64,000 bases of DNA from Polyangiaceae bacterium (GTDB lineage: Bacteria > Myxococcota_A > Polyangia > Polyangiales > Polyangiaceae): positions 620,001 through 684,000 of the forward strand of contig JAHBVX010000002.1 in assembly GCA_019637295.1 (NCBI GenBank). The letters run 5' to 3'. A program made the position numbers and the translations under genes. Below the pieces are notes generated by a model. That model ran no database searches. It was given only the letters and a program-made list of their open reading frames with translations, and was not told the DNA's origin. Each line of letters begins with the position of its first letter. The stretch's first letter is position 1. Shown in pieces: positions 19,158-31,505 of this stretch.

Positions 19158-21062
19158 ATGACCAACTACGACGCTTCCGACATCACCGTGCTCGAAGGGC
19201 TCGAGCCGGTGCGTAAACGGCCGGGCATGTACATCGGCGGTGTGGCGAGCGCGGGCCTGCACCATCTGGTCTGGGAGCTGGTGGACAACGCCATCGACGA
19301 GGCCATGAATGGTCACGCCTCCGAGATCACGGTGACACTGCACCGGGACGGTCGCTCGCTCACCTGCGCGGACAACGGTCGCGGCATCCCAGTGGACGTG
19401 CACCCGAAGCACAAGAAGCCCGCCATCGAGATCATCTTCACCACCTTGCACGCCGGCGGAAAGTTCGAGCCGGGCAACTACAAGACCGCGGGGGGGCTGC
19501 ACGGTGTCGGGGCCAGCGTGGTCAACGCACTGTCGAGCGAACTCGTGGCTCGCGTGCGTCGCGGCGGCAGCGAGTTCGAGATGAGGTTTCACGCGGGCCA
19601 GGTGCAAGGCAAGCTGAAGACCGTCGGCAAGGCCCGCGGGACCGGGACGACCGTGTTCTTCCGGCCGGACCCGGAGATTTTTCCGAAGACCGAGTTCTCC
19701 GCGGAGGTGATCCGCGAGCGGCTCGAGGTGGCCAGCTTCCTGCACAAGGGGCTCCGGGTCGTGTTCGCCGACGAGACCCAAGACCAGAAGCACGTGTTTC
19801 ACCACGAGAGCGGCATCGTGGAATTTCTCGAGTCGATCCTGCGGGAGCGCAAGCAGAGGAGCGTGCACGATGCGTCTTTCACGCTGTTTCGCGAGAACGG
19901 ACTTCGCATCGAGGCAGTGCTGCGCTGGACCGAGTCGACGGACGAGCACGTGCGGAGCTTCGTCAACGGCATCCCGACGGGCAGCGGCGGAACCCACGAG
20001 AACGGATTTCGCGCCGGCGTGGTCAAGGCCGTCCGCAACTTCATCGAGACCCACAACCTCTCGCCGCGCGGCGTCACGCTGACGGCAGAAGACATTCGGG
20101 AAGGGCTGTGCGGTGTCCTCAGCGTCTTTCTCGCCGAGCCGCAGTTCCAGGGGCAGACCAAGGACCGCCTGAACAACCCGGAGGTGCAAGCCGCGGTGGA
20201 CGGCGCGGTGCGACCCGCTCTCGAACAGTGGCTCAACCAGAACCGTAGCATCGCCGAGCAGGTCGTCCATCGCGTGATCCTCGCCGCCCGCGCGCGGGAG
20301 GCATCGCGAGCCGCGAGCGCCGCGGTGACGCGACGCAGCGCGACGAGCGGTCGACTCACGCTGCCGGGCAAGCTCAGTGACTGCACCAGCACCAATCGAC
20401 GAGACACGGAGCTGTTCATCGTTGAGGGTGATTCCGCAGGGGGCAGCGCCAAGCAGGGGCGCGATCGCAGCCGGCAGGCGGTGCTGCCGCTGCGCGGAAA
20501 GGTGCTCAACACCGAGACCCTGTCCATCGCCAAGGTGCTGGAGAACCGCGAGATCGCGGACTTGGTCACCGCCCTCGGCTGCGGCGTCGGCCCTGGCTTC
20601 GACCTCGAAAAGCTACGCTACGAGCGCATCGTCTTGCTCGCCGACGCCGATAGCGACGGCAACCACATCACCACGTTGCTGCTCACCTTCTTCTACCGGC
20701 ACTTGCCGCAGCTCATTCGCGACAAGCGGCTGTTCGTCGCCGTCCCGCCGCTGTACCGCATCGACGCGGGCAACGACACGTTCTGGGCCAAGGACGACGA
20801 CGACAAGGAGCGCATCCTGCGCACGCGCGTGAAGGGCAATGCCAAGCCCGAGATCACCCGCTTCAAGGGGCTGGGCGAGATGATGCCCAAGGTGCTGTGG
20901 GACACGACTCTCAACCCGGCCACTCGGCAGTTCGTGCGTGTCGACATCGCCGATGCGCTCGAGACCGACCGCATCGTCAGCGAGTTGATGGGCAAGGACC
21001 CCTCGGCTCGCTTTCACTTCATCATGGACCGCGCCGAAGAGGCTCAAGCCTTGGACGTCTGA
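19158..21062 (+). CDS. parE: DNA topoisomerase IV subunit B (ParE)
   Basis: A 634-residue type IIA topoisomerase ATPase subunit. The GHKL ATPase shows ELVDNAIDEAMNGH, DNGRGIPVD and the lid GGLHGVGASVVNAL. The TOPRIM domain has EGDSAGGSAKQGRDR (about 422) and DADSDGNHI with the metal-binding acidic residues, followed by KGLGEM. Length about 634, the WLNQN segment near 360 and PPLYRID favour ParE over the longer proteobacterial GyrB. The ATG is chosen because MTNYDASDITVLEGLEPVRKRP is the usual family start; upstream in-frame sequence is non-conserved. Its partner ParC is not in the window; the A subunit at 32186 looks like GyrA. The 3' end overlaps meaB by 19 bp, tail to tail. Confidence 0.88.
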   Translation: MTNYDASDITVLEGLEPVRKRPGMYIGGVASAGLHHLVWELVDNAIDEAMNGHASEITVTLHRDGRSLTCADNGRGIPVDVHPKHKKPAIEIIFTTLHAGGKFEPGNYKTAGGLHGVGASVVNALSSELVARVRRGGSEFEMRFHAGQVQGKLKTVGKARGTGTTVFFRPDPEIFPKTEFSAEVIRERLEVASFLHKGLRVVFADETQDQKHVFHHESGIVEFLESILRERKQRSVHDASFTLFRENGLRIEAVLRWTESTDEHVRSFVNGIPTGSGGTHENGFRAGVVKAVRNFIETHNLSPRGVTLTAEDIREGLCGVLSVFLAEPQFQGQTKDRLNNPEVQAAVDGAVRPALEQWLNQNRSIAEQVVHRVILAARAREASRAASAAVTRRSATSGRLTLPGKLSDCTSTNRRDTELFIVEGDSAGGSAKQGRDRSRQAVLPLRGKVLNTETLSIAKVLENREIADLVTALGCGVGPGFDLEKLRYERIVLLADADSDGNHITTLLLTFFYRHLPQLIRDKRLFVAVPPLYRIDAGNDTFWAKDDDDKERILRTRVKGNAKPEITRFKGLGEMMPKVLWDTTLNPATRQFVRVDIADALETDRIVSELMGKDPSARFHFIMDRAEEAQALDV

Positions 21063-22063
21063 GTCCGTTCAGCGCCAACGCGGAAGAACTCCGCGAGCAC
21101 GCGACGGGCACCCTCGGGAGCGCTGATCTCGTCGGAATCCACCGCGCTCTCCACCTGCGCTCGGACCGAGAGCGTGCGGGCGTCGGCGTCGAGCGCACGC
21201 TCGAGACCTTCGCGGATCAAAGCGTCGAGCCACTCGCGCTGCTGTTCGCGTCGCCGCTGGGCGAGCCTGCCCGAGCTTGCCAGCTCGGCGCGGTGCTCGG
21301 CGAGCGCCGCCCAGACCTCTGCAATGCCGCGCTCCTCCGCTGCGCTCGCGGTCAGCACCCGTGGTGGATGGTCATCGTGGCTGCGGAGCAAGCGAAATGC
21401 GCTCTCGTGCTCACGTGCGGCGCTCTCCGCGCGCCGCACGTTGTCCCCATCGGCCTTGTTCACGCACAGCACGTCGACTAGCTCGAGGATTCCGCGCTTG
21501 ATCCCCTGCAGCTCGTCCCCCGCACCCGCGAGCGCCAGCAGCAGGAAGGAGTCCACCATCTGAGCTACGGCGTGCTCACTCTGACCGACACCGACGGTCT
21601 CGACGATCACCACGTCGAAGCCGGCTGCCTCGCACACCAACATCGCTTCGCGGGTGTGGCGAGCGACGCCGCCGAGGGACCCCGCTGCGGGGCTGGGCCT
21701 TATGAATGCGTCGGTCGAGGCCGACAAACGAGGCATGCGCGTCTTGTCGCCCAAGATGCTGCCGCCGGAGACCCGGCTCGACGGATCCACCGCGAGCACG
21801 GCGACCCGACAGCCTATCCCGAGCAAGTGCAAGCCGAGCGCGTCGATGAACGTGCTCTTGCCGACGCCCGGCACTCCACTGATCCCGACACGATGGGCGC
21901 GGCCCGTGCGCTTGATGAGTCGCCGAAGCAAGTCCTCGGCGGCCTGTTGGTGGTCCGTGCGTCGGCTCTCTACCAACGTTATCGCCTTGGCCAGCGCGCG
22001 CCGCTTGCCTGCCAGGACGTCCAGAGCCAACGCGGCGACGTCGGGCGGCGCCATCATCGTCAT
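21044..22063 (-). CDS. meaB: Methylmalonyl-CoA mutase-associated GTPase MeaB (copy 1)
   Basis: A 339-residue G3E-family P-loop GTPase of the MeaB/ArgK type. The Walker A motif GVPGVGKS is at residues 63-70, [19 protein letters not shown] follows, [13 protein letters not shown] carries switch elements and VNKADGDN is the guanine-specificity motif. MeaB protects methylmalonyl-CoA mutase from inactivation and gates cobalamin loading. The start overlaps the mutase stop by 4 nt, a clear operon arrangement. A second MeaB-like gene is at 30432. The 3' end overlaps parE on the opposite strand. Confidence 0.92.
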
Positions 22064-24228
22064 CCGGGCCCGGGTTCCCTGCCCCTGCGCTGCTCGATGA
22101 GCTCCAGCACACGCGTCGCGCTCGTCACGATCGGGGTGCCGGGCCCAAAAATGGCCGCCACGCCTCGGTCGTGGAGCTCGGCGTAGTCGGAGGCGGGGAT
22201 CACCCCGCCGACGACGACCAGGATGTCCCGGGCGCCCAGCGCCTCGAGGCAGCGGAGCAGCTCGGGCACGAGAGTGGTGTGCCCTGCTGCCTGCGACGAC
22301 ACCCCGATGGCGTGCACGTCATTCTCCATCGCCTGCCGAGCGGCCTCCTCGGGTGTCTGAAACAGCGGACCGATGTCCACGTCGTAGCCGGCGTCGGCGA
22401 ACGCCGTCGCGATCACCTTCGCCCCTCGGTCGTGGCCGTCTTGACCCATCTTGACGATCAAGATCCGTGGCCGTCGCCCTTGGTCCCGCTCGAAGCGCGA
22501 GATACCGTCTCGCAGCGCCTGCCAATCCGGATCGCCACCGTAGTAGCCGGCGTAGACGCCCGACAGGGTCTGCGTGCTCGCGCTGTGACGCCCGAACACA
22601 GTCTCCAGCGCGAGTGAGATCTCGCCCACCGTGGCGCGGGCCCGCGCGGCGTCGACGCTGAGCTCGAGGAGGTTCCCCTGGCCGGACTCCGCCGCTCTGG
22701 ACAGCGCGCTGAGGCACCCACGAACAGCCGCGTCGTCGCGACCGGCCTTTACGGCGGCCAGCCGCGTGAGCTGCGTCTCACGCACCGCTCGGTTGTCGAC
22801 GACTCGCACGTCGATGGGCTGCTCCTCCCGGACTGGGTAGCGATTCACGCCCACGATCACGTCCAGCCCTCGGTCGATGCGCGCCTGACGGCGGGCGGCA
22901 GCCTCCTCGATCCTCAGCTTGGGCACGCCGGTCTCCACGGCGCGGGTCATGCCCCCGAGGGCCTCGACCTCCTCGATGTGGGAGAGGGCCTTCGCGGCCA
23001 GCGCGTGGGTGAGGGACTCCATGAAGTAGCTGCCGCCGAAGGGATCGACGACGTGGGTCACCTGAGCCTCGTGCTGCAACAGCAGCTGGGTATTGCGCGC
23101 GAGCCGCGCCGCGAAATCGCTGGGCAGCGCGATGGCCTCGTCGAACGAGTTGGTGTGCAGGCTCTGAGTTCCGCCCAGAACGGCGGCCAGCGCTTCGAGC
23201 GTCGTGCGCACCACGTTGTTGTGGGGCTCCTGCTCCGTCAGGCTCACGCCGCTGGTCTGACAGTGCGTGCGCAGCATCATGCTCTCCGGCTTCGTCGGTG
23301 AGAAGCGCTCCGCGAGCAGCGTCGCCCACAGCAGCCGCGCCGCGCGCAGCTTGGCGATCTCCATGAAGAAGTTCATTCCGATGCCGAAGAAGAACGACAA
23401 GCGAGGCGCGAACTCGTCGATGTCGAGCCCCTTGGCGAGAGCGGCGCGTACGTACTCGAGTCCGTCGGCGATGGTGTAGCCGAGCTCGAGATCCGCGGTC
23501 GCCCCGGCTTCCTGCATGTGGTAGCCGCTGATGGAAATGGAGTTGAAGCGCGGCATTTGCCGCGCGGCGAAGTGGATCACGTCCGACACGATCCGCATGC
23601 TCGCGGCCGGCGGGTAGATGTACGTGTTTCGGACCATGAACTCCTTGAGGATGTCGTTCTGGATGGTCCCAGTCAGGTCTGCTCGAAGTGCGCCCTGCTC
23701 CTCTCCGGCGACGATGTACATGGCCATCACCGGCAACACAGCGCCGTTCATGGTCATGCTCACGCTGATGTCCTTCAGCGAGATGCCGTCGAACAGAATC
23801 TGCATATCCGCGACGCTGTCGATGGCGACGCCTGCCTTGCCCACGTCCCCGACTACCCGCGGGTGGTCGCTGTCGTAGCCGCGGTGGGTGGCTAGATCGA
23901 ACGCGACGCTCAGGCCCCTCTGCCCGGCGGCGAGCGCGGTACGATAGAACGCGTTGGACTCCTCGGCGGTGGAGAAGCCAGCGTACTGCCGGATGGTCCA
24001 CGGGCGGCCGGCGTACATCGTCGCCTTCGGGCCGCGCAAGAACGGAAACGCGCCGCTCACCGTGTCGATGAAGTCGAGCTCGGCGACGTCCGCGCGGGTG
24101 TACAGCGGCTTGATGGGAATACCTTCGGGGGTCTGCCAGCACAGCGACTCGGGGTCTTTGCTCCCAAGCTCCCGGCGACACAGTTCGTCCCAGGAGTCGA
24201 GGTCGGCGGCGGACTTCGGATCAATCAT
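22060..24228 (-). CDS. Methylmalonyl-CoA mutase, single-chain (Sbm/MUT type)
   Basis: A 722-residue adenosylcobalamin-dependent mutase interconverting methylmalonyl-CoA and succinyl-CoA. The catalytic barrel shows [23 protein letters not shown] near the N-terminus and [17 protein letters not shown] near 340. The C-terminal B12 domain has [13 protein letters not shown] around residue 600, with the DxHxxG lower-axial histidine. Catalytic and B12 domains are in one chain, as in homodimeric mutases. The start is ATG 24228; a GTG seven codons upstream directly abuts the epimerase stop and is a possible alternative. Downstream meaB overlaps by 4 nt; the upstream epimerase-like gene completes the propionyl-CoA branch. 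Confidence 0.94.
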
Positions 24229-24249
24229 CTGGCGAGGTCTCCGTAGCAC

Positions 24250-24735
24250 TCAGCCGGCGGCGTCGAAGGCGGCGAGCACGTCGGCCGGAGCCTGTACGAG
24301 CTCGATCAGCACTCCCTCGCCGGCGAAGGGGAACTCGTCGTTGGCCTTGGGGTGGACGAAGCACACGTCGTGTCCAGCGGCGCCAGCGCGGATGCCGCCG
24401 GGTGCGAAGCGGACGCCCTGAGCCGTGAGCCACTCGACGGCGCCGGCGAGGTCGTCCACCCAGAGGCCGACGTGGTTGAGCGGAGGCTGATCCACCCGCG
24501 GGCGGCGCTCGGGATCCAGCGGCTGCATCAAGTCCACCTCGACCCGGAAGGGGCCGCTGCCCACCACCGTGATGAGCTCGTCCACGTTCTCACGCTCGCT
24601 GCGATACTCTCCGGTGGGCTGCAGACCCAGCAAGTCGACCCAGAGCGCGCGGAGCTTCTGCTTGTCGCTCGCACCGACGGCGATCTGTTGCACGCCTAGG
24701 ACTCGAAAGGGACGCTCGGGCACGGTCGGGCTCAC
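24250..24735 (-). CDS. VOC-family protein, probable methylmalonyl-CoA epimerase
   Basis: A 161-residue vicinal-oxygen-chelate protein with two paired beta-alpha-beta-beta-beta modules. It directly precedes the mutase gene (21 nt to the chosen ATG) and meaB, so epimerisation of methylmalonyl-CoA is the obvious role. The second module has [10 protein letters not shown] with a metal-binding histidine and [10 protein letters not shown] with a glutamate. In the first module, where epimerases usually have a histidine in an HVGIAV-like strand, this protein reads VQQIAVGA, so the ligand is glutamine. This could mean an altered metal site or a related but different VOC enzyme. Annotation by context is stronger than by sequence. 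Confidence 0.68.
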
Positions 24736-25412
24736 GGCGCGCGCAGCTGCACTCCGAGCTGCACCTCGAGGTTGGAGTGAATGGAACGCAAGATGCCCGT
24801 CGTGATGCCGGCGTTCGCGTACACGCCGATGGCCTTGGCGAAATCGAACTGCGGGCCTGCGGAGAGATGAAAGACCATGTCCGTCTTGTACTCGGGATTG
24901 TTGCCTTGATAGGCCGGGTTTCCCGCGCCCGACTCGAGCTCCACACCCGCGGCCGGCTGAATGAAGATCTTGAACGCGCTGTCGCTCATCGTGTAGAGCC
25001 GAGCGCCGGCGCCGAGGACCAGGACCTCGTTGGTGTTCGTCTCGGGCTCCTTGGCGAGCCCGAACCGGCCCCAGGCAAAGGGTTCGAAGGAACCGAAGGG
25101 CGCGAAGCTGAGCGCGACGTCGAGCGCGAACGGCGCGGCGTGGCCGCAGAACTTCTGTTGATCCTTGACGGACTTCGCGGGGTCGGGAGCGCTGCAGAAG
25201 GGGGACTGATCGTAACGGAAGATCATGCGGTAGCCGCCGACCACGCCGGCGCGCAACCCGAACTGTCCGCCGTGGCTGAAGGTGCGATCCTCCTCGCCAG
25301 GACCGTCCCCGGCGGCGCTGGGCGCGGCCGGAGTGGATGGCGCGTCGTCGGCACCGTCGGCCAGCGCTGGACTCGAGAGGAGCATGGCCAGACCGAGCGC
25401 GGAGAGCTTCAT
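24732..25412 (-). CDS. Secreted or outer-membrane beta-barrel-like protein
   Basis: A 226-residue protein with a classical signal peptide ([18 protein letters not shown], cleavage expected before DGADD). An Ala/Pro/Gly-rich spacer and a mature part with alternating hydrophobic residues and aromatic-rich strands follow ([25 protein letters not shown]-like C-terminal [12 protein letters not shown]). Such patterns are common in small myxobacterial outer-membrane beta-barrels. ATG 25412 is chosen because it starts the signal peptide; the longer upstream frame is arginine-rich and unlikely. Its end overlaps the epimerase-like gene by 4 nt, so it is co-oriented and probably co-transcribed. No specific family was recognised. 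Confidence 0.65.
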
Positions 25413-25458
25413 CGTCTGGTCAGCATACCGCGAGCAGCCGCGGGTGAGCCAGCATCGC

Positions 25459-27243
25459 CTACTTGCTCTTCGCCGGCGGCGCGCTACGCGCACTGCCCGC
25501 GGTCGTCCACTCCCGCTCGGCCAGGATGGCCTCACAAAACAGCTCGATCTTCGCGCCGCCAGCCAGGGCAACGAAGCCGCTCGCGGTGGGGATTTCCTCC
25601 ACGCCGGGCAGCTCCACGGTCCTGTGGCCAGAGAGCGCCTCGAGGGTGCTCGACGGCGCGGTGAGCGCCAGGATGCCCAGGCCCGCGAACTGAGGCACCA
25701 GCCCCGCGGGGATGTGCTCCGCCACCACCGCCCGCAGCGGCGCGCCGAGGTCGGCGGCGTGGCGAGCCGCCCAGCGTACCTCTCCCAGCGAGCGCAGCAC
25801 CATCAAGCTGGGCGCCGAAGGGCGCGCCTCGTGGTCGACGATGTCGAGCGTGGCCTTGCCTGCCCATCCGAGCCGCGCTGATGCTCGGGCGGGTGGCAGC
25901 TTCGTGCCTTCGAGTCCTTCCTTGGCCTTCCCCTTGCCCTTGCGCAGCGTGAGAACGTCATCCGTGGGTAGGGTGCGCGGGACGGTCACGCGGACCGGCC
26001 GCTTGAAGCTGCGTGGGTCTCCGAGCTGGCCCGTGGCCACCGCGAACGCGATCGTCTCCGCAGAGGCGACGACGAAGCGCCGGTCCTTCGCGGCGCCCGG
26101 TTCAGGCTCGAACGTTCGCAGGCTGAGACCACCCGCGGTGGGGGGATAGAGCTCACCCGTGAGCAGGCGATGATCGGGCTCGACCAGCCGCGCGCCGGTG
26201 GCGATCAAGTCGACGAGGGCACCCGAGGCCGCGAGCACCTCCAGCGCTTGCCTCGACGGTGGAGCGAGCAGGAAGTCCAACCTGGGCGGGACGCGCTTGC
26301 TCTTGAGCAAGGCCGCCGCGGCGAGCAAATCCCGTAGTGACGCCCCCGAGTCCCCACCCAGCACGACTTGGTACACTGGCTTTCCGGCCAGCTCGCGGAC
26401 TTGTCGAACCTCCCCCGCCTCGTCCATGACGAGCGGATCCACGGCCGATAGATCCACGCTGATGACGTCCTCGCAGGGAGCGCCCGGATCCGGCAGCAGC
26501 CCGCGGTGAGCCTTCGAGCGGCGCTGATCCCGCAGGTAGACCTCGGTCTTCTCGTCGCTCACGAACACGGCTGCTGACGCTCCAAGCAGCGGCGCGAGGG
26601 CGCACAGCACGGCGCGGTCGGGCACGCTGAGCAGGCGCGCGCTCGGACCGGCGAACTCCACCACCACCGGGACGTGTCCCTGTTGATCGACGCGCTTGAT
26701 CACGTCGCCCAAGCCGCGCCGCAACAGCTCGAGCGCGACGTCCCGCACGCACACGAAGGGTCGAATTCTCCCCGACAGCAAGACCTGCACGCTGACCGGC
26801 GGTCTGACCCACACGGTCCCGTGGGTGAGCGCTTCGGCGAGCTGCGAAGGCGAGACTACCAGCGTGAGCATGCCGACGCCGCCCACCGATGCCATACGCG
26901 GCTCGTCGGTCACCGCCAGGCGCGCGGGGCTGGCGAATCGCTCGAGGTGAACCGCGGGAGGAAAGCCGATCCCGGGCCTTGCGATCAGGATGTTGTTCTG
27001 GAGCACCGCGCGCGAGACACGCTCCGGAGCGCTCAGATCAGGCTCGGCGCCGTCCGTCGTCACGCAGCGTGTGTCGTACGCGACGGCGGTCTCGACGGTG
27101 CACTTCTTGAGGCCCTGCTCGAGTGCCTCGGCAAGCACGCGGTTAGGTTCACGAGCCAAGACGATCTGATCGACCTTCACCTGGACCAGGCGGTCCTTGA
27201 GATCCGGATCGTCGGCTCGGCCCGCGAGGACCTTTTGAGTCAT
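25459..27243 (-). CDS. Aconitase-superfamily protein lacking all Fe-S cluster cysteines
   Basis: A 594-residue protein whose order of segments follows short bacterial aconitases: VLAGRADDPDLKDRLVQVKVD (start), GRIRPFVCVRDVALELL, FVSDEKTEVYLRDQ and the LRDLLAAAALLKSKRV helix. A C-terminal swivel-like domain contains RAVVAEHIPAGLVPQFAGLGILAL. At the cluster sites the family pattern GSCTN aligns to GGDSG, and PxCGPCLG aligns to PDHRLLTG, so all three cysteine ligands are replaced (Asp, His, Leu). The swivel domain also lacks the serine-arginine motif. It is therefore very unlikely to be a dehydratase. Start ATG 27243 gives the family-like N-terminus. It sits upstream of the outer-membrane-like gene, 46 nt apart. 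Role unknown. Confidence 0.72.
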   Translation of the reverse strand: MTQKVLAGRADDPDLKDRLVQVKVDQIVLAREPNRVLAEALEQGLKKCTVETAVAYDTRCVTTDGAEPDLSAPERVSRAVLQNNILIARPGIGFPPAVHLERFASPARLAVTDEPRMASVGGVGMLTLVVSPSQLAEALTHGTVWVRPPVSVQVLLSGRIRPFVCVRDVALELLRRGLGDVIKRVDQQGHVPVVVEFAGPSARLLSVPDRAVLCALAPLLGASAAVFVSDEKTEVYLRDQRRSKAHRGLLPDPGAPCEDVISVDLSAVDPLVMDEAGEVRQVRELAGKPVYQVVLGGDSGASLRDLLAAAALLKSKRVPPRLDFLLAPPSRQALEVLAASGALVDLIATGARLVEPDHRLLTGELYPPTAGGLSLRTFEPEPGAAKDRRFVVASAETIAFAVATGQLGDPRSFKRPVRVTVPRTLPTDDVLTLRKGKGKAKEGLEGTKLPPARASARLGWAGKATLDIVDHEARPSAPSLMVLRSLGEVRWAARHAADLGAPLRAVVAEHIPAGLVPQFAGLGILALTAPSSTLEALSGHRTVELPGVEEIPTASGFVALAGGAKIELFCEAILAEREWTTAGSARSAPPAKSK

Positions 27244-27609
27244 TGTGCGGGGCGGGTCCCCCGCGCGCGCACGCATTGGGCTAACGCTTCCTCTTTCCTC
27301 TGGAGTCAAGCAGGCCGGTCAAGTCCCCGAGCCTCGGGGAACGGGAACGTAGCCGCTCGGCGTCCGAAGGGTCAAGGACGACAGAGGGCAGATCTCCTTG
27401 CAGCCTTTCTCCCAGCCAGGGCCGGGGTGCAACCCTAGTTGGGCAAAATTTGTATTGCCATGCCTGGCACCATCATAACCACTGGAACTCCTTATATTTT
27501 ATGGCCAAGGGCCGCCGGCTGGGCTCCGCCGAGGCCGAGTTCGCCGCTCCTCGTGCGCCCCGAGCGCAGAAACGTTCACCCACAGCCGAGAACCGGCTAC
27601 GCTCAGCTC
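27244..27609. other. Divergent intergenic region with an AT-rich island
   Basis: This 366 bp gap lies between the aconitase-like gene (minus) and the roadblock gene (plus). Most is GC-rich and featureless. At 27440-27510 there is an unusually AT-rich patch for this genome, containing TATATT at 27493-27498 and a TGCCA-tgcc-TGGCA inverted repeat at 27456-27469. A promoter/operator for the roadblock gene is plausible; no well-spaced -35 box was found for the TATATT. Confidence 0.35.
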
Positions 27610-27969
27610 ATGTTCAAGGAGGCGCTACAAGGCGTCGTAGACGGGACCGAGGGTGGGCTTGCCGGCTTGCTCATGGACTTCGAGGGCATCCCGCTCGAGA
27701 GCTATGCGCGGCAGGACGCGGGGTTCGACATCGAGGCCGTGGGCGCCGAGGTGAGCGTCGTGGTCAAGGCCATCCAGCGCGCCACGGAGATGCTGGAGGC
27801 CGGCGACACCAAAGAGGTGTCGTTCAAGAGCGCCAAGCTCGTCACGCTCATCCGGGTCCTGAACGACAACTACTTTCTGGCGCTCACGATGGACCCTGGG
27901 GGCAACCTCGGCAAGGGGCGCTATCTGCTACGTGTCCTCGCGCCGCAGCTGCTCGAGGAGCTCGCCTAG
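27610..27969 (+). CDS. Roadblock/LC7 (MglB-like) domain protein
   Basis: A 119-residue single-domain protein with the roadblock/LC7 pattern: an N-terminal helix (FKEALQGVVDGTEGGLAGLLMD), a beta strand with GIPLESYAR, a long central helix (AEVSVVVKAIQRATEML), then EVSFKSAKLVTLIRVL and DNYFLALTMDPGGNLGKGRYLLR. Family members regulate small Ras-like GTPases such as MglA in myxobacterial polarity. No GTPase gene lies nearby, so the partner is unknown. The ATG at 27610 starts the domain; the frame extends upstream into non-conserved sequence. Confidence 0.8.
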   Translation: MFKEALQGVVDGTEGGLAGLLMDFEGIPLESYARQDAGFDIEAVGAEVSVVVKAIQRATEMLEAGDTKEVSFKSAKLVTLIRVLNDNYFLALTMDPGGNLGKGRYLLRVLAPQLLEELA

Positions 27970-28028
27970 CCCGCGTGGCACGCGCTCGTCGCGGGGCAAA
28001 GGCAACGCTGCGCGCTCGAGCGCCGCGG

Positions 28029-28517
28029 GTGAGCCCGCGGCGTCGGTCGGGTGGCACACCGCTGCTCAGGGTGTTGCTGCTCAGCGGGCCGAACTTGGAC
28101 CGCCTAGGCAAACGCGAGCCGGAGATTTACGGCAGCGCGACCCTAAGCGACGTCCACGCGCTCGTGGTCGAGATTGCCAAGGCGCTCGACGCCGAGGTGG
28201 TGTGCCGGCAGAGCAATCATGAGGGCTTGCTGATCGACTGGATCAACTCGGCCGAGGACGAAGGGTTCGACGGGATCCTGATCAACCCGGGTGCCCTGAC
28301 GCACACGTCCTTCGCGCTGTACGACTCGCTGCGTGGTGCCGGCCTTCCGGCCATCGAGGTGCACCTGTCCAATCCGGACGCCCGCGAGCCCTTTCGTCGA
28401 CGCAGTCGGATTGCGCCGGCCTGCCTGGGTCGGGTTGCCGGCTTCGGAGCCGAGTCCTACGCGCTGGGACTGCGCGGACTGATCGTCGCGCTGCGTGCGA
28501 GACGGGCCACCGCGTAG
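28029..28517 (+). CDS. aroQ: Type II 3-dehydroquinate dehydratase
   Basis: About 162 residues (GTG at 28029; a second GTG at 28071 would give 148). Type II dehydroquinase, shikimate pathway, converting 3-dehydroquinate to 3-dehydroshikimate. The active-site loop reads [17 protein letters not shown] with the catalytic arginine and tyrosine. [27 protein letters not shown] and the [14 protein letters not shown] segment supply the remaining conserved Asn, His and Arg residues. Neither start has a strong ribosome binding site; the later one truncates the first beta strand slightly. It lies between the roadblock gene and accB-accC, all on the plus strand, and may be part of one transcript. Confidence 0.9.
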
Positions 28518-28590
28518 CGGGCTTCGCGGCGCCAGATTCCGCTTCGCCCGGGCGATCGCCCACGGTACCGTCTGGGCGCAGGGTCAGCCG

Positions 28591-29043
28591 ATGGAAATTC
28601 CGCTCAAGCAGCTCAAGAACTTGATCGCGACGCTCGACGCAGGTGGCGTGTCCGAGCTCGAATACGAGGATGAAAAGATCAAGCTGCGCTTGGTGCTCGG
28701 TCGCGCCGCGCCGGCCCTCGCGACGGCTGCCGTCGCTCTACCGGCAAGCACCGTCGCCACGAGCGTCGCGCCGAGCGCGAGCGACGTCACCGATCCCGAC
28801 CTGGTCGTGGTGACGTCGCCGTTCGTCGGCACGTTCTACCGTGCCCCTTCTCCCGAGGCTCCAGCCTTCGTGGAGCTTGGTGCCCTGGTGAAGAAGGGTC
28901 AGACCCTCTGCATCGTGGAGGCCATGAAGCTCATGAACGAGATCGAAGCCGACGACAACGGCACCGTCGAAGAGGTCTTGGTCGAGAACGGCGCCAGCGT
29001 CGAGTTCGGTCAGAAGTTGTTCAAGATCCGACGGGTTGGCTGA
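28591..29043 (+). CDS. accB: Acetyl-CoA carboxylase biotin carboxyl carrier protein
   Basis: A 150-residue BCCP. Residues 1-40 form the N-terminal helix region ([15 protein letters not shown]), residues about 45-70 are the Ala/Pro/Thr/Ser-rich flexible linker, and the C-terminal biotinyl domain contains [10 protein letters not shown] with the biotinylated lysine at residue 113 and SPFVGTFY at about 76-83. It carries carboxybiotin between AccC and the carboxyltransferase in fatty-acid synthesis. The ATG at 28591 begins the conserved N-terminus. accC follows after 24 nt. accA and accD are not in the window. Confidence 0.94.
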
Positions 29044-29067
29044 GCGGATGGGGCCGCCAGGCGGGCG

Positions 29068-30435
29068 ATGTTCAAGAAGATCCTGATCGCGAATCGAGGG
29101 GAGATTGCGATGCGCATCATCCGTGCGTGTCGCGAGTTGTCCATTCGTACGGTCGCCGTCCACTCACAGGCAGACGAGGGAGCCTTGCACGTTCGCTTCG
29201 CGGACGAGGCGATTTGCATTGGTCGCGCTCCGGCCGCGGAGAGCTACCTGAACGTGCCGGCCATCATCAGCGCCGCCGAGATCAGCGCCGCCGACGCCAT
29301 CCATCCGGGCTACGGCTTCTTGAGCGAGAACGCCGCGTTCGCCCAGGTGGTCGAGCGCTGCGGACTCACCTTCATCGGCCCGCGTCCGGAGGTGATGGCG
29401 CGTTGGGGTGACAAGATCAGTGCACGAGAGCTCGCGGCGCAGTTCGATCTCCCGCTCTTGCCCGGCTCGCAGTCCCTGGAGAGCGTCTCTCACGCCGAGT
29501 CCGAGGCGCGACGCATCGGCTACCCCGTGATGCTCAAGGCGCGGGGCGGTGGCGGTGGTCGTGGGATGCGCGTCGTACGGCGCCTCGAGGAGCTTCGTGG
29601 AGCGTTCGAGTCCGCCACTGCGGAGGCGCTCGCGGGGTTCAAGAACGCAGAGCTGTACCTCGAGCGCTATGTGGAGCGACCCCGCCACGTCGAGTTCCAG
29701 GCGCTGGCCGACGAGCACGGGCAGGTCTGGACGCTGGGGGAGCGCGAGTGCAGCCTGCAGCGTCGTCATCAGAAGGTCGTCGAGGAGGCACCCTGCGTCG
29801 CCATGACCGAGCAGCGGCGCGCGGAGATGGGGGAACGGATCCGCCACGCGCTGCGGGAGACGGGCTACACGTCCCTCGGGACCCTCGAGTTCTTGATGGA
29901 CGAAGACGGGTCGCTCTACTTCATGGAGATGAACACGCGGGTGCAGGTCGAGCACCCAGTCACCGAGGTGACTACGGGCGTCGATCTGGTCATCGAGCAG
30001 ATCCGCGTGGCCGCCGGCGAGAAGCTGAACCTCCCCGACACCCGTCCGTGGAAATTCCGCGGGCACGCCATCGAGTGCCGGATCATGGCGGAAGACTCGC
30101 TCACCTTCGCGCCCTGGCCCGGTCTGATCACCGAGTACCATCCGCCTGGAGGCGCCGGTGTGCGCGTCGACTCCGGCGTGTTCGGCGGCTGGACGGTGCC
30201 GAGCCATTACGACTCGCTGCTGGCCAAGGTGATCACCCACGGTAGCACGCGGGAGATCGCGATCAATCGCATGCAGCGCGCGCTCGATGAGTTGATCATC
30301 GGTGGAATTCGCACCAACGTGGAGTTCCAGCGCCGGCTTCTGCGCGACGCAGAGGTGCTCGAGGGTCGCATGACCACCCGCACCGTCGAGCGCGTGGTGG
30401 AGGAGTACCGCGCGGAGCAGTCGCGAGCACGTTGA
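29068..30435 (+). CDS. accC: Acetyl-CoA carboxylase, biotin carboxylase subunit
   Basis: A 455-residue ATP-grasp enzyme carboxylating biotin on AccB with ATP and bicarbonate. It starts with FKKILIANRGEIAMRIIRAC, has AIHPGYGFLSENA near 72, the glycine-rich ATP loop ARGGGGGRGMR (about 158-168), ECSLQRRHQKVVEEAP, EMNTRVQVEHPVTE with catalytic residues near 290-300, and RGHAIECRI. Length is normal for the stand-alone subunit. Its stop overlaps the TTG start of the downstream MeaB-like gene (TTGA). Confidence 0.95.
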   Translation: MFKKILIANRGEIAMRIIRACRELSIRTVAVHSQADEGALHVRFADEAICIGRAPAAESYLNVPAIISAAEISAADAIHPGYGFLSENAAFAQVVERCGLTFIGPRPEVMARWGDKISARELAAQFDLPLLPGSQSLESVSHAESEARRIGYPVMLKARGGGGGRGMRVVRRLEELRGAFESATAEALAGFKNAELYLERYVERPRHVEFQALADEHGQVWTLGERECSLQRRHQKVVEEAPCVAMTEQRRAEMGERIRHALRETGYTSLGTLEFLMDEDGSLYFMEMNTRVQVEHPVTEVTTGVDLVIEQIRVAAGEKLNLPDTRPWKFRGHAIECRIMAEDSLTFAPWPGLITEYHPPGGAGVRVDSGVFGGWTVPSHYDSLLAKVITHGSTREIAINRMQRALDELIIGGIRTNVEFQRRLLRDAEVLEGRMTTRTVERVVEEYRAEQSRAR

Positions 30436-31505
30436 CGCTGCGCGCGCGAGCGGCGACTCTGTTGTCCGTGGAAGAGGAGCTGGCCCGACGAGTCGTCCAA
30501 GGCGAGGTGCGTGCTGCAGCGCGCGCTTGCCGCGCCGTCGACGACCGGTTGACCGGCTACCGTGAGCTGCTCAAGGCGCTTCACCCACACACCGGCAAGG
30601 CCTGGGTGCTAGGCGTGACGGGCAACCCAGGCGCCGGGAAGAGCACGCTGACGGATCGACTGGTGCAGCGCTTCCGAGCAGGAGGCGAGCGGGTCGCGGT
30701 GGTCGCGATTGATCCCACCAGCCCGTTCTCCGGCGGGGCGATCCTGGGCGATCGGATCCGTATGCAGCGGCACTTCGAGGATCCCGGCGTCTTCATCCGT
30801 TCGCTGGCCACACGGGGCGCTCTCGGCGGCCTGACGCGGTCGGCGCGCGATGTCGTGTCCGTGCTGGATGCCTGGGGAGCCGCTGTCGTGATCGTGGAGA
30901 CGGTCGGCGTGGGGCAAGACGAGCTGGAGATCACCCGCGCCGCGCACACTACCCTGGTCGTGGTCGCGCCCGGGCTGGGCGACGAGATCCAGGCGATCAA
31001 GGCCGGCATCCTGGAGTGCGCCGACGTCTTCGCCGTCAACAAGGCCGACCGGGACGGTGCCGAGGCGGCGGTCGCCGATCTCGAGCTCATGATCGCCCTC
31101 GGCGGTGAAGCGTTCACCAGCGCGGCGAAGCGGGGACGGGGCCACACCGCCGCTACGGTTCGTCCCGTCGTCGTCGGCGGGGCCGGCGAAGAGTGGACGC
31201 CGCCCATCACGCGCACCGTGTCGACGCGGGGAGAGGGTGTGGGCGACCTAGTGGCGCACCTCTGCGCCCACCGTGACTGGCTCTTCGAGACCGAGGCCGG
31301 CAAGCGCCGCCTGTCCGAGCGCGCCCTGCAGTCTCTGGTCCAGTCTTTCCGCGACACGGTCTCCGAGGAGGCCGTCCGTCGCCTCGGTGACCGGCTCGAG
31401 CGCACCGCGGAGCGCGTGCGCGACCACGAACTCGACCCCTACACCGCGAGTGAAGAGTTGCTCGAGCTGTTCGCTCGCGCACTGCGGGACGATGCGTCAG
31501 GCTGA
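30432..31505 (+). CDS. MeaB/ArgK-family GTPase (copy 2)
   Basis: A 357-residue MeaB-type GTPase: Walker A GNPGAGKSTL near residue 64, [33 protein letters not shown] and VNKADRDG all present. The predicted start is TTG overlapping the accC stop; the region before VEEELARRV has little conservation, and a GTG at about 30468 is an alternative. The gene is coupled to accBC rather than to a mutase. MeaB-like GTPases chaperone B12 mutases such as methylmalonyl-, ethylmalonyl- or isobutyryl-CoA mutase. This paralogue may serve a different mutase encoded elsewhere. Confidence 0.88.
   Translation: MTLRARAATLLSVEEELARRVVQGEVRAAARACRAVDDRLTGYRELLKALHPHTGKAWVLGVTGNPGAGKSTLTDRLVQRFRAGGERVAVVAIDPTSPFSGGAILGDRIRMQRHFEDPGVFIRSLATRGALGGLTRSARDVVSVLDAWGAAVVIVETVGVGQDELEITRAAHTTLVVVAPGLGDEIQAIKAGILECADVFAVNKADRDGAEAAVADLELMIALGGEAFTSAAKRGRGHTAATVRPVVVGGAGEEWTPPITRTVSTRGEGVGDLVAHLCAHRDWLFETEAGKRRLSERALQSLVQSFRDTVSEEAVRRLGDRLERTAERVRDHELDPYTASEELLELFARALRDDASG

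Follow-up and report, generated by a model that had tools for sequence, protein, structure and literature searches.

A probable aconitase-fold pseudoenzyme family without canonical cluster ligands in the Polyangiaceae

Aconitase is the textbook enzyme that moonlights once its cluster falls apart: IRP1 and IRP2 keep the ligand cysteines and switch, and in IRP1 it is domains 3 and 4 that grip the RNA. Both moonlighting and the IRP1 concept thus imply an enzyme that switches on cluster loss. Among bacterial aconitases, AcnB of E. coli switches to RNA binding in its apo state, as described in the accessible text of PMC4150767, and RNA binding by bacterial apo-aconitases is also covered in the accessible part of PMC7527780. 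The residues Cys358, Cys421, Cys424, Asp165, His167, His147 and Ser642 of mitochondrial aconitase (mAcn) are numbered here as in the available part of PMC8184944, which also describes aconitase X (AcnX) as binding its cluster with three cysteines, one of them at the His147 position, and the small subunit of IPMI as a separate protein in bacteria and archaea. A cluster-free aconitase family or an aconitase pseudoenzyme was not found in the literature searched, with most subscription journals outside its scope. Here we analyse a divergent aconitase-like gene from a member of the Polyangiaceae; ‘the window’ denotes the whole stretch of DNA analysed, 64,000 nucleotides long. A sequence-only reading of this gene had reported Asp, His and Leu at the three cluster-ligand positions of a maintained, otherwise recognisable aconitase, had thought a moonlighting or regulatory role possible, and had proposed a profile search, a structure prediction and dN/dS across relatives as checks, which were carried out.

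Gene, fold and swivel domain

The gene and the elements assigned to it are as follows.

25459..27276, minus strand: coding sequence of the putative aconitase-fold pseudoenzyme, 605 aa, start ATG 27276 (open reading frame, PF00330, Met in 77/77 orthologs)
27241..27276, minus strand: family-specific N-terminal motif, MRARAGDPPRTM (ortholog alignment compared with relatives)
25510..25875, minus strand: degenerate swivel domain, or domain 4 (model residues 468-589 compared with LeuD)
27346..27375, minus strand: TTGACC-N18-TACGTT element that resembles a promoter by its pattern only, lying 70 bp ahead of the ATG

In the ORF list of the window the open frame spans 25459..27309 on the minus strand, with a TTG start and 616 codons. 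The frame of 594 codons reported earlier, which begins at Met 23 (base 27243), is real, but a longer product is likelier: ATG 27276 is most likely the start, because Met occurs there (residue 12) in all 77 aligned orthologs, where it opens the near-invariant MRARAGDPPRTM. Residue numbers (D320, H380, L383 and the motifs) are counted from TTG 27309, whereas model residue ranges refer to the 605-aa protein. A relaxed TTGACC-N18-TACGTT pattern is present within 200 bp upstream in 31 of the 77 orthologs compared with 0.6 in shuffles, a comparison that uses mononucleotide shuffles and a pattern written after viewing the alignment, with distances to the gene that vary; a standard sigma-70 scan did not flag the element upstream of the pseudoenzyme ATG.

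The profile search places the protein in the aconitase superfamily, with a PF00330 (Pfam Aconitase) score of 94.4 bits against a curated cut-off of 28.7, and PF00330 matches all 30 sequences of one alignment at E ≤ 0.001. The best NCBIfam models, TIGR01342 (194.4 bits) and PRK07229 (193.5 bits), stay below their cut-offs of 719 and 612, respectively, and the main Pfam and NCBIfam matches end before the swivel domain. Two further PF00330 loci of the same genome score much higher, at 534 and 317 bits. When searched against the PDB with phmmer, the window protein matches IPMI and mitochondrial aconitase.

The structure of the 605-aa protein was predicted with AlphaFold2 (pLDDT 71.8, pTM 0.65) from an input alignment of 7 sequences, the model being weak at residues 59-113 and 438-469. 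All 20 Foldseek matches of this model at E ≤ 0.001 belong to the aconitase superfamily. VIA-align superposed residues 9-424, corresponding to domains 1-3, on 4kp1 (Z 38.2, rmsd 2.6, 397 residues) and residues 1-586 on mitochondrial aconitase (Z about 32), and for domains 1-3 it returned no strong non-aconitase match. The swivel domain (468-589) matches LeuD with Z 9.2 and rmsd 2.9 over 110 aligned residues, a match that is only moderate since the next row, the unrelated cell-division regulator SteA, is close behind at Z 8.4. By profile and predicted structure, the window protein has the aconitase fold, comprising domains 1-3 plus the swivel, as the sequence-only reading had recognised.

The two parts of the protein evolve differently. 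Core dN/dS is 0.00-0.22 over 22 ortholog pairs, below 0.13 in 20 of them, whereas domain 4 evolves faster, at 0.04-0.50 over 21 pairs (simple Nei-Gojobori counts, with dS > 1 in some pairs). These ratios indicate that domains 1-3 are under strong purifying selection, contradict decay and, together with the open frame 25459..27309, bear out the view of a full-length, maintained gene. Furthermore, domain 4 is absent from six of the 77 orthologs, which are proteins of 434-460 residues. A search for domain 4 in the loci of these six gave no match; in a longer stretch of one of the genomes there is one match, which is weak (E 0.009) and distant from the gene.

Cluster ligands and other active-site residues

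We aligned 77 distinct orthologs with 22 relatives of the nearest known family, picked from the second-tier matches. Of the 99 genomes in which a match was found, 77 are represented in the alignment by one ortholog each and the other 22 are outside it; two duplicates, being identical, and two further copies of the window gene were removed. Three codons of the window gene occupy the ligand positions.

26350..26352, minus strand: Asp320, replacing the first cluster cysteine (mAcn Cys358); D in 75/77 orthologs, Cys in 0
26170..26172, minus strand: His380, replacing the second cluster cysteine (mAcn Cys421); variable, Cys in 0/77 orthologs and in 22/22 relatives
26161..26163, minus strand: Leu383, replacing the third cluster cysteine (mAcn Cys424); mostly V/M/L, Cys in 0/77 orthologs and in 22/22 relatives

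Besides the conserved aspartate, the first ligand column of the orthologs contains one G and one gap, and the relatives have Cys (12) or Ser (10) there. The second column is variable in the orthologs (R, A, P, H, Q and others) and the third is mostly V, M, L or T. Thus, at each of the three positions where a catalytic aconitase has its [4Fe-4S] cysteine ligands, cysteine was found in none of the 77 orthologs, which argues against a chance loss. Cysteines lie within three residues of the first site in 6 of the 77 orthologs and of the third in 2, and no ortholog among the 77 has a cysteine near two ligand sites at once. In the alignment, GGDSG stands opposite GSC(T/A)N, and the CxxC loop is matched by EPDHRLLTG; both loops are anchored by their flanks (QVVLGGDSGASLRDLL versus QVIVGSCANSSLKDLL and TGARLVEPDHRLLTGELYPPTAGGLSLRTF versus SGARILEASCGPCIGNGQSPPSGSVSVRSF). 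Misalignment of the ligand loops was considered and rejected, given the flanking identity and the agreement of the 77 orthologs. The Asp, His and Leu of the sequence-only reading accordingly correspond to D320, H380 and L383. While the predicted structure speaks for the fold, ligand loss rests on the sequence alignment, by which the canonical cluster ligands are lost across the aligned ortholog family and the loss is ancient.

Two deviating cases were observed in this region. In one ortholog the GGD loop falls within a gap of about 26 residues, with the frame otherwise open; this may be an assembly error. In 10 of the 22 enzyme-like relatives, which form one clade (SH-aLRT 100), Ser replaces the first cluster Cys (GSSAN), while CxxC, DSHT and SSR are kept; on these motifs, it is possible that they are two-cysteine aconitases.

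Most other catalytic residues, on whose loss the sequence-only reading was silent, are also gone. Further mAcn numbers, such as Asp100, His101 and Glu262, are also used for alignment columns. DSHT, CxxC and SSR are kept in all 22 nearest relatives and lost in the pseudoenzyme family, with the Arg of SSR partly kept. The relatives’ residues are found in 0 and 6 of the 77 orthologs for the Asp100-His101 pair, in 0 for His147, in 0 and 0 for Ser and His of DSHT (Ser166-His167), in 0 for Asn258 and in 5 for Glu262; R, N and R of RN..GR are retained in 0, 1 and 4 of 77, and the two serines of SSR in 0 and 5. An acidic residue (D or E) persists at the Asp165 column in 75/77 orthologs and the SSR Arg in 18/77, the window protein among them. 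These remain as active-site traits and count against a pseudoenzyme.

The 22 relatives have 91 invariant columns in the core. At 33 of these the residue is shared by 70 or more of the 77 orthologs, and at 48 by no more than 7; domain 4 has 33 such columns, at 28 of which no more than 7 orthologs share the residue. Conversely, 45 positions are near-invariant and specific to the family (at least 75/77 orthologs, at most 2/22 relatives), including 10 Arg and 2 Lys versus 6 Asp and 1 Glu. Several new near-invariant residues are located on former active-site loops: the DSHT loop carries D135 and R138, the Cys358 loop G319 and D320, and the Cys421/424 loop P378 and D379. E377 and H121 are invariant in the orthologs as well, yet they are present in the relatives too. 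A GDPRxFKRPxR stretch is a further conserved segment of the family, in addition to the following basic motif.

26503..26535, minus strand: near-invariant LRDQRRSKAHR, residues 259-269; relatives share only L259, R264 and mostly Q262

The family as a whole is basic, with a median pI of 9.4 (range 6.7-9.9) and a median charge of +9. By contrast, the 22 relatives are mostly acidic, with a median pI of 5.9 (range 4.8-8.6) and a median charge of -9, computed on frames that possibly include residues ahead of the start. Relatives from two genomes of the window’s own family have pI 6.5 and 6.2, AcnA of the same genome 5.9, and ten neighbour genes at the same loci medians of 4.8-6.7. Since same-family relatives, the AcnA of this genome and the neighbour genes are not basic, genome-wide composition does not readily account for the charge; against that, pI exceeds 8 in 5 of 18 other large ORFs of the window.

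Distribution and gene neighbourhood

In the order, we searched 183 genomes, comprising 108 of the window’s family (f1), 5 of a second family (f5) and 70 others. A strong match (E ≤ 1e-90) is found in 94 of the 108 f1 genomes, some of the 14 others being incomplete assemblies. All five f5 genomes have matches of 53-60% identity, one of them a contig-end fragment (E 1e-48). The other 70 genomes of the order gave no strong match, the best (E 1e-40) coming from second-tier enzyme-like relatives. In a phylum-wide search of 377 genomes, listed to E ≤ 1e-60, matches occur outside f1 and f5 in 11 genomes, all with enzyme-like motifs. A quick tree unites the pseudoenzyme family in a single clade (SH-aLRT 100) whose stem measures 1.86 changes per column; due to this long stem and a long-branch warning flagged for the tree, the exact root of the family is uncertain. 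The same tree places f5 inside f1, and a one-clade test leaves the alternative standing (p 0.165), so that transfer between the two is not claimed. The gene has been lost cleanly between the same neighbours, the outer-membrane-like and the Roadblock-like gene, in two genomes; having been lost at least twice, it is not essential everywhere.

The neighbours on the divergent side of the window gene are these.

27610..27969, plus strand: Roadblock/LC7-like gene, divergent, the usual neighbour within the family (Robl_LC7 18.9 bits, below the cut-off of 23; synteny)
28068..28517, plus strand: aroQ (type II dehydroquinase)
28495..29043, plus strand: accB (biotin carboxyl carrier protein)
29068..30435, plus strand: accC-like biotin carboxylase

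The pseudoenzyme gene is divergent from the Roadblock/LC7-like gene in 60 of 67 loci (some genomes are counted twice), with aroQ, accB and accC coming next in most cases. The seven loci without the Roadblock neighbour comprise six from f5 and one close to a contig end. On its opposite flank, the gene has two neighbours shared among close relatives, one outer-membrane-like and one of glyoxalase type (methylmalonyl-CoA epimerase-like), beyond which the window carries methylmalonyl-CoA mutase and MeaB. Genes for methylmalonyl-CoA mutase, the epimerase-like glyoxalase and two MeaB-type GTPases, at 21044-24735 and 30432-31505, flank the locus. In the three f5 loci examined, the pseudoenzyme gene comes after two others, one for an ATPase whose Pfam domains point to the ABC-F type and one with a glutaredoxin domain. 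Because Roadblock-like genes are present in 170 of the 183 genomes searched in the order, more than carry the pseudoenzyme gene, and relatives of the f5 glutaredoxin-domain gene in 161 of 183, some matching by the glutaredoxin part alone, a stable functional partner was not found among them. Deriving the function from the neighbours was rejected, as the f1 and f5 contexts disagree and the neighbour genes are widespread in the order.

Possible functions and relation to known aconitases

We consider it rather probable that the family represents a dedicated pseudoenzyme of the aconitase superfamily, in which the former active-site face was remade as a new binding site. The window protein would perform no aconitase-type dehydration; instead, domains 1-3 would bear a basic binding face built from former active-site loops, which would hold either a partner protein or a polyanion (nucleic acid, or a metabolite that is phosphorylated or of CoA type), and the protein would act in regulation or scaffolding. 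Domain 4 would have become an optional appendage. The bound ligand would perhaps be nucleic acid or another polyanion, as the charge of the family suggests, but basic charge can have causes other than polyanion binding, the neighbours Roadblock, aroQ, accB and accC suggest no RNA function, and the f5 gene sits elsewhere. Since the canonical ligands and most catalytic residues are absent in the family, a dedicated pseudoenzyme is preferred to a moonlighting switch. A non-catalytic role, as the sequence-only reading had it, is therefore plausible, but an IRP1-type switch on cluster loss is not supported.

Nucleic-acid binding could enter in two ways. One is a permanently cluster-free nucleic-acid-binding regulator, in which the apo-state role of IRP1 would have become fixed and a face on domains 1-3 would replace the domain 3/4 clamp; this we regard as possible but doubtful. 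The other, a regulator of IRP1 type in which domains 3 and 4 close as a clamp on an RNA hairpin, is improbable. The cluster-free fold and basic charge would suit it, and apo-AcnB of E. coli binds mRNA according to the accessible text of PMC4150767; however, the clamp uses domain 4, which here is fast-evolving and dispensed with in the short orthologs, hardly any of the RN..GR and SS residues are left, no Rfam match at the gathering threshold was found in 24000-31000, and an upstream alignment of 14 loci, inspected by eye, has no clearly conserved long leader. Basic charge is the only hint of RNA binding. At about the same level as the fixed regulator we place a new enzyme, in which the old pocket, perhaps now centred on a divalent metal, would have been remodelled to catalyse another reaction that needs no cluster. 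The new conserved D135, R138, D320 and D379 on former active-site loops, together with E377 and H121, and the acidic residues at or beside two ligand positions would fit such a pocket, whereas the third ligand place is mostly hydrophobic and a cluster-free enzyme of aconitase fold was not found in the literature searched, most subscription journals being outside its scope.

A cluster bound through different cysteines, in the manner of aconitase X, is still less probable than the RNA clamp. C82, C187 and C279 are the best-conserved cysteines (65, 67 and 64 of 77), C82 is beside the former Asp100-His101, and AcnX, as presented in the available part of PMC8184944, shows that the ligand set can move. 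Nevertheless, the three occur together in only 55/77 orthologs and are lost in differing combinations, and around position 380, as around the His147 position used in AcnX, all 77 are free of cysteine to a distance of three residues, making such a cluster very unlikely. Finally, a decaying duplicate of an aconitase gene could explain the lost catalytic residues, the clean gene loss in two genomes and the relaxed domain 4, but not the low core dN/dS, on which it was rejected, the new invariant residues or the core frames that are open across the aligned orthologs; we give it next to no weight.

If the family is a dedicated pseudoenzyme, as we favour, sequence and model suggest that it probably does a different job from aconitase. 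A Pfam-only annotation would class it with the aconitases, so that metabolic models may count a non-enzyme. A permanently cluster-free aconitase family under selection would also be a natural test of the abilities of the scaffold without iron.

Among known systems, the TIGR01342/PRK07229 monomeric aconitases (~650 aa) are nearest by profile and search (~29-33% identity) and have the same domain order, 1-2-3-4, but the window protein is far below both cut-offs and the DSHT, CxxC and SSR of these relatives are lost in its family. The large subunit of IPMI/homoaconitase (4kp1, 4kp2) superposes with domains 1-3 of the model; IPMI, however, has three cluster cysteines and, in the available part of PMC8184944, a separate small subunit, whereas the pseudoenzyme has no cysteine ligands and a fused, degenerate swivel domain. 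Aconitase X, as described in that part of PMC8184944, has likewise diverged within the superfamily and has its ligands at altered positions. With IRP1/IRP2 and the bacterial RNA-binding apo-aconitases, the pseudoenzyme has in common a cluster-free aconitase fold. These keep their ligand cysteines and switch, and a cluster-dependent switch of this type needs the canonical ligands; the pseudoenzyme, in contrast, is without them and has a dispensable domain 4.
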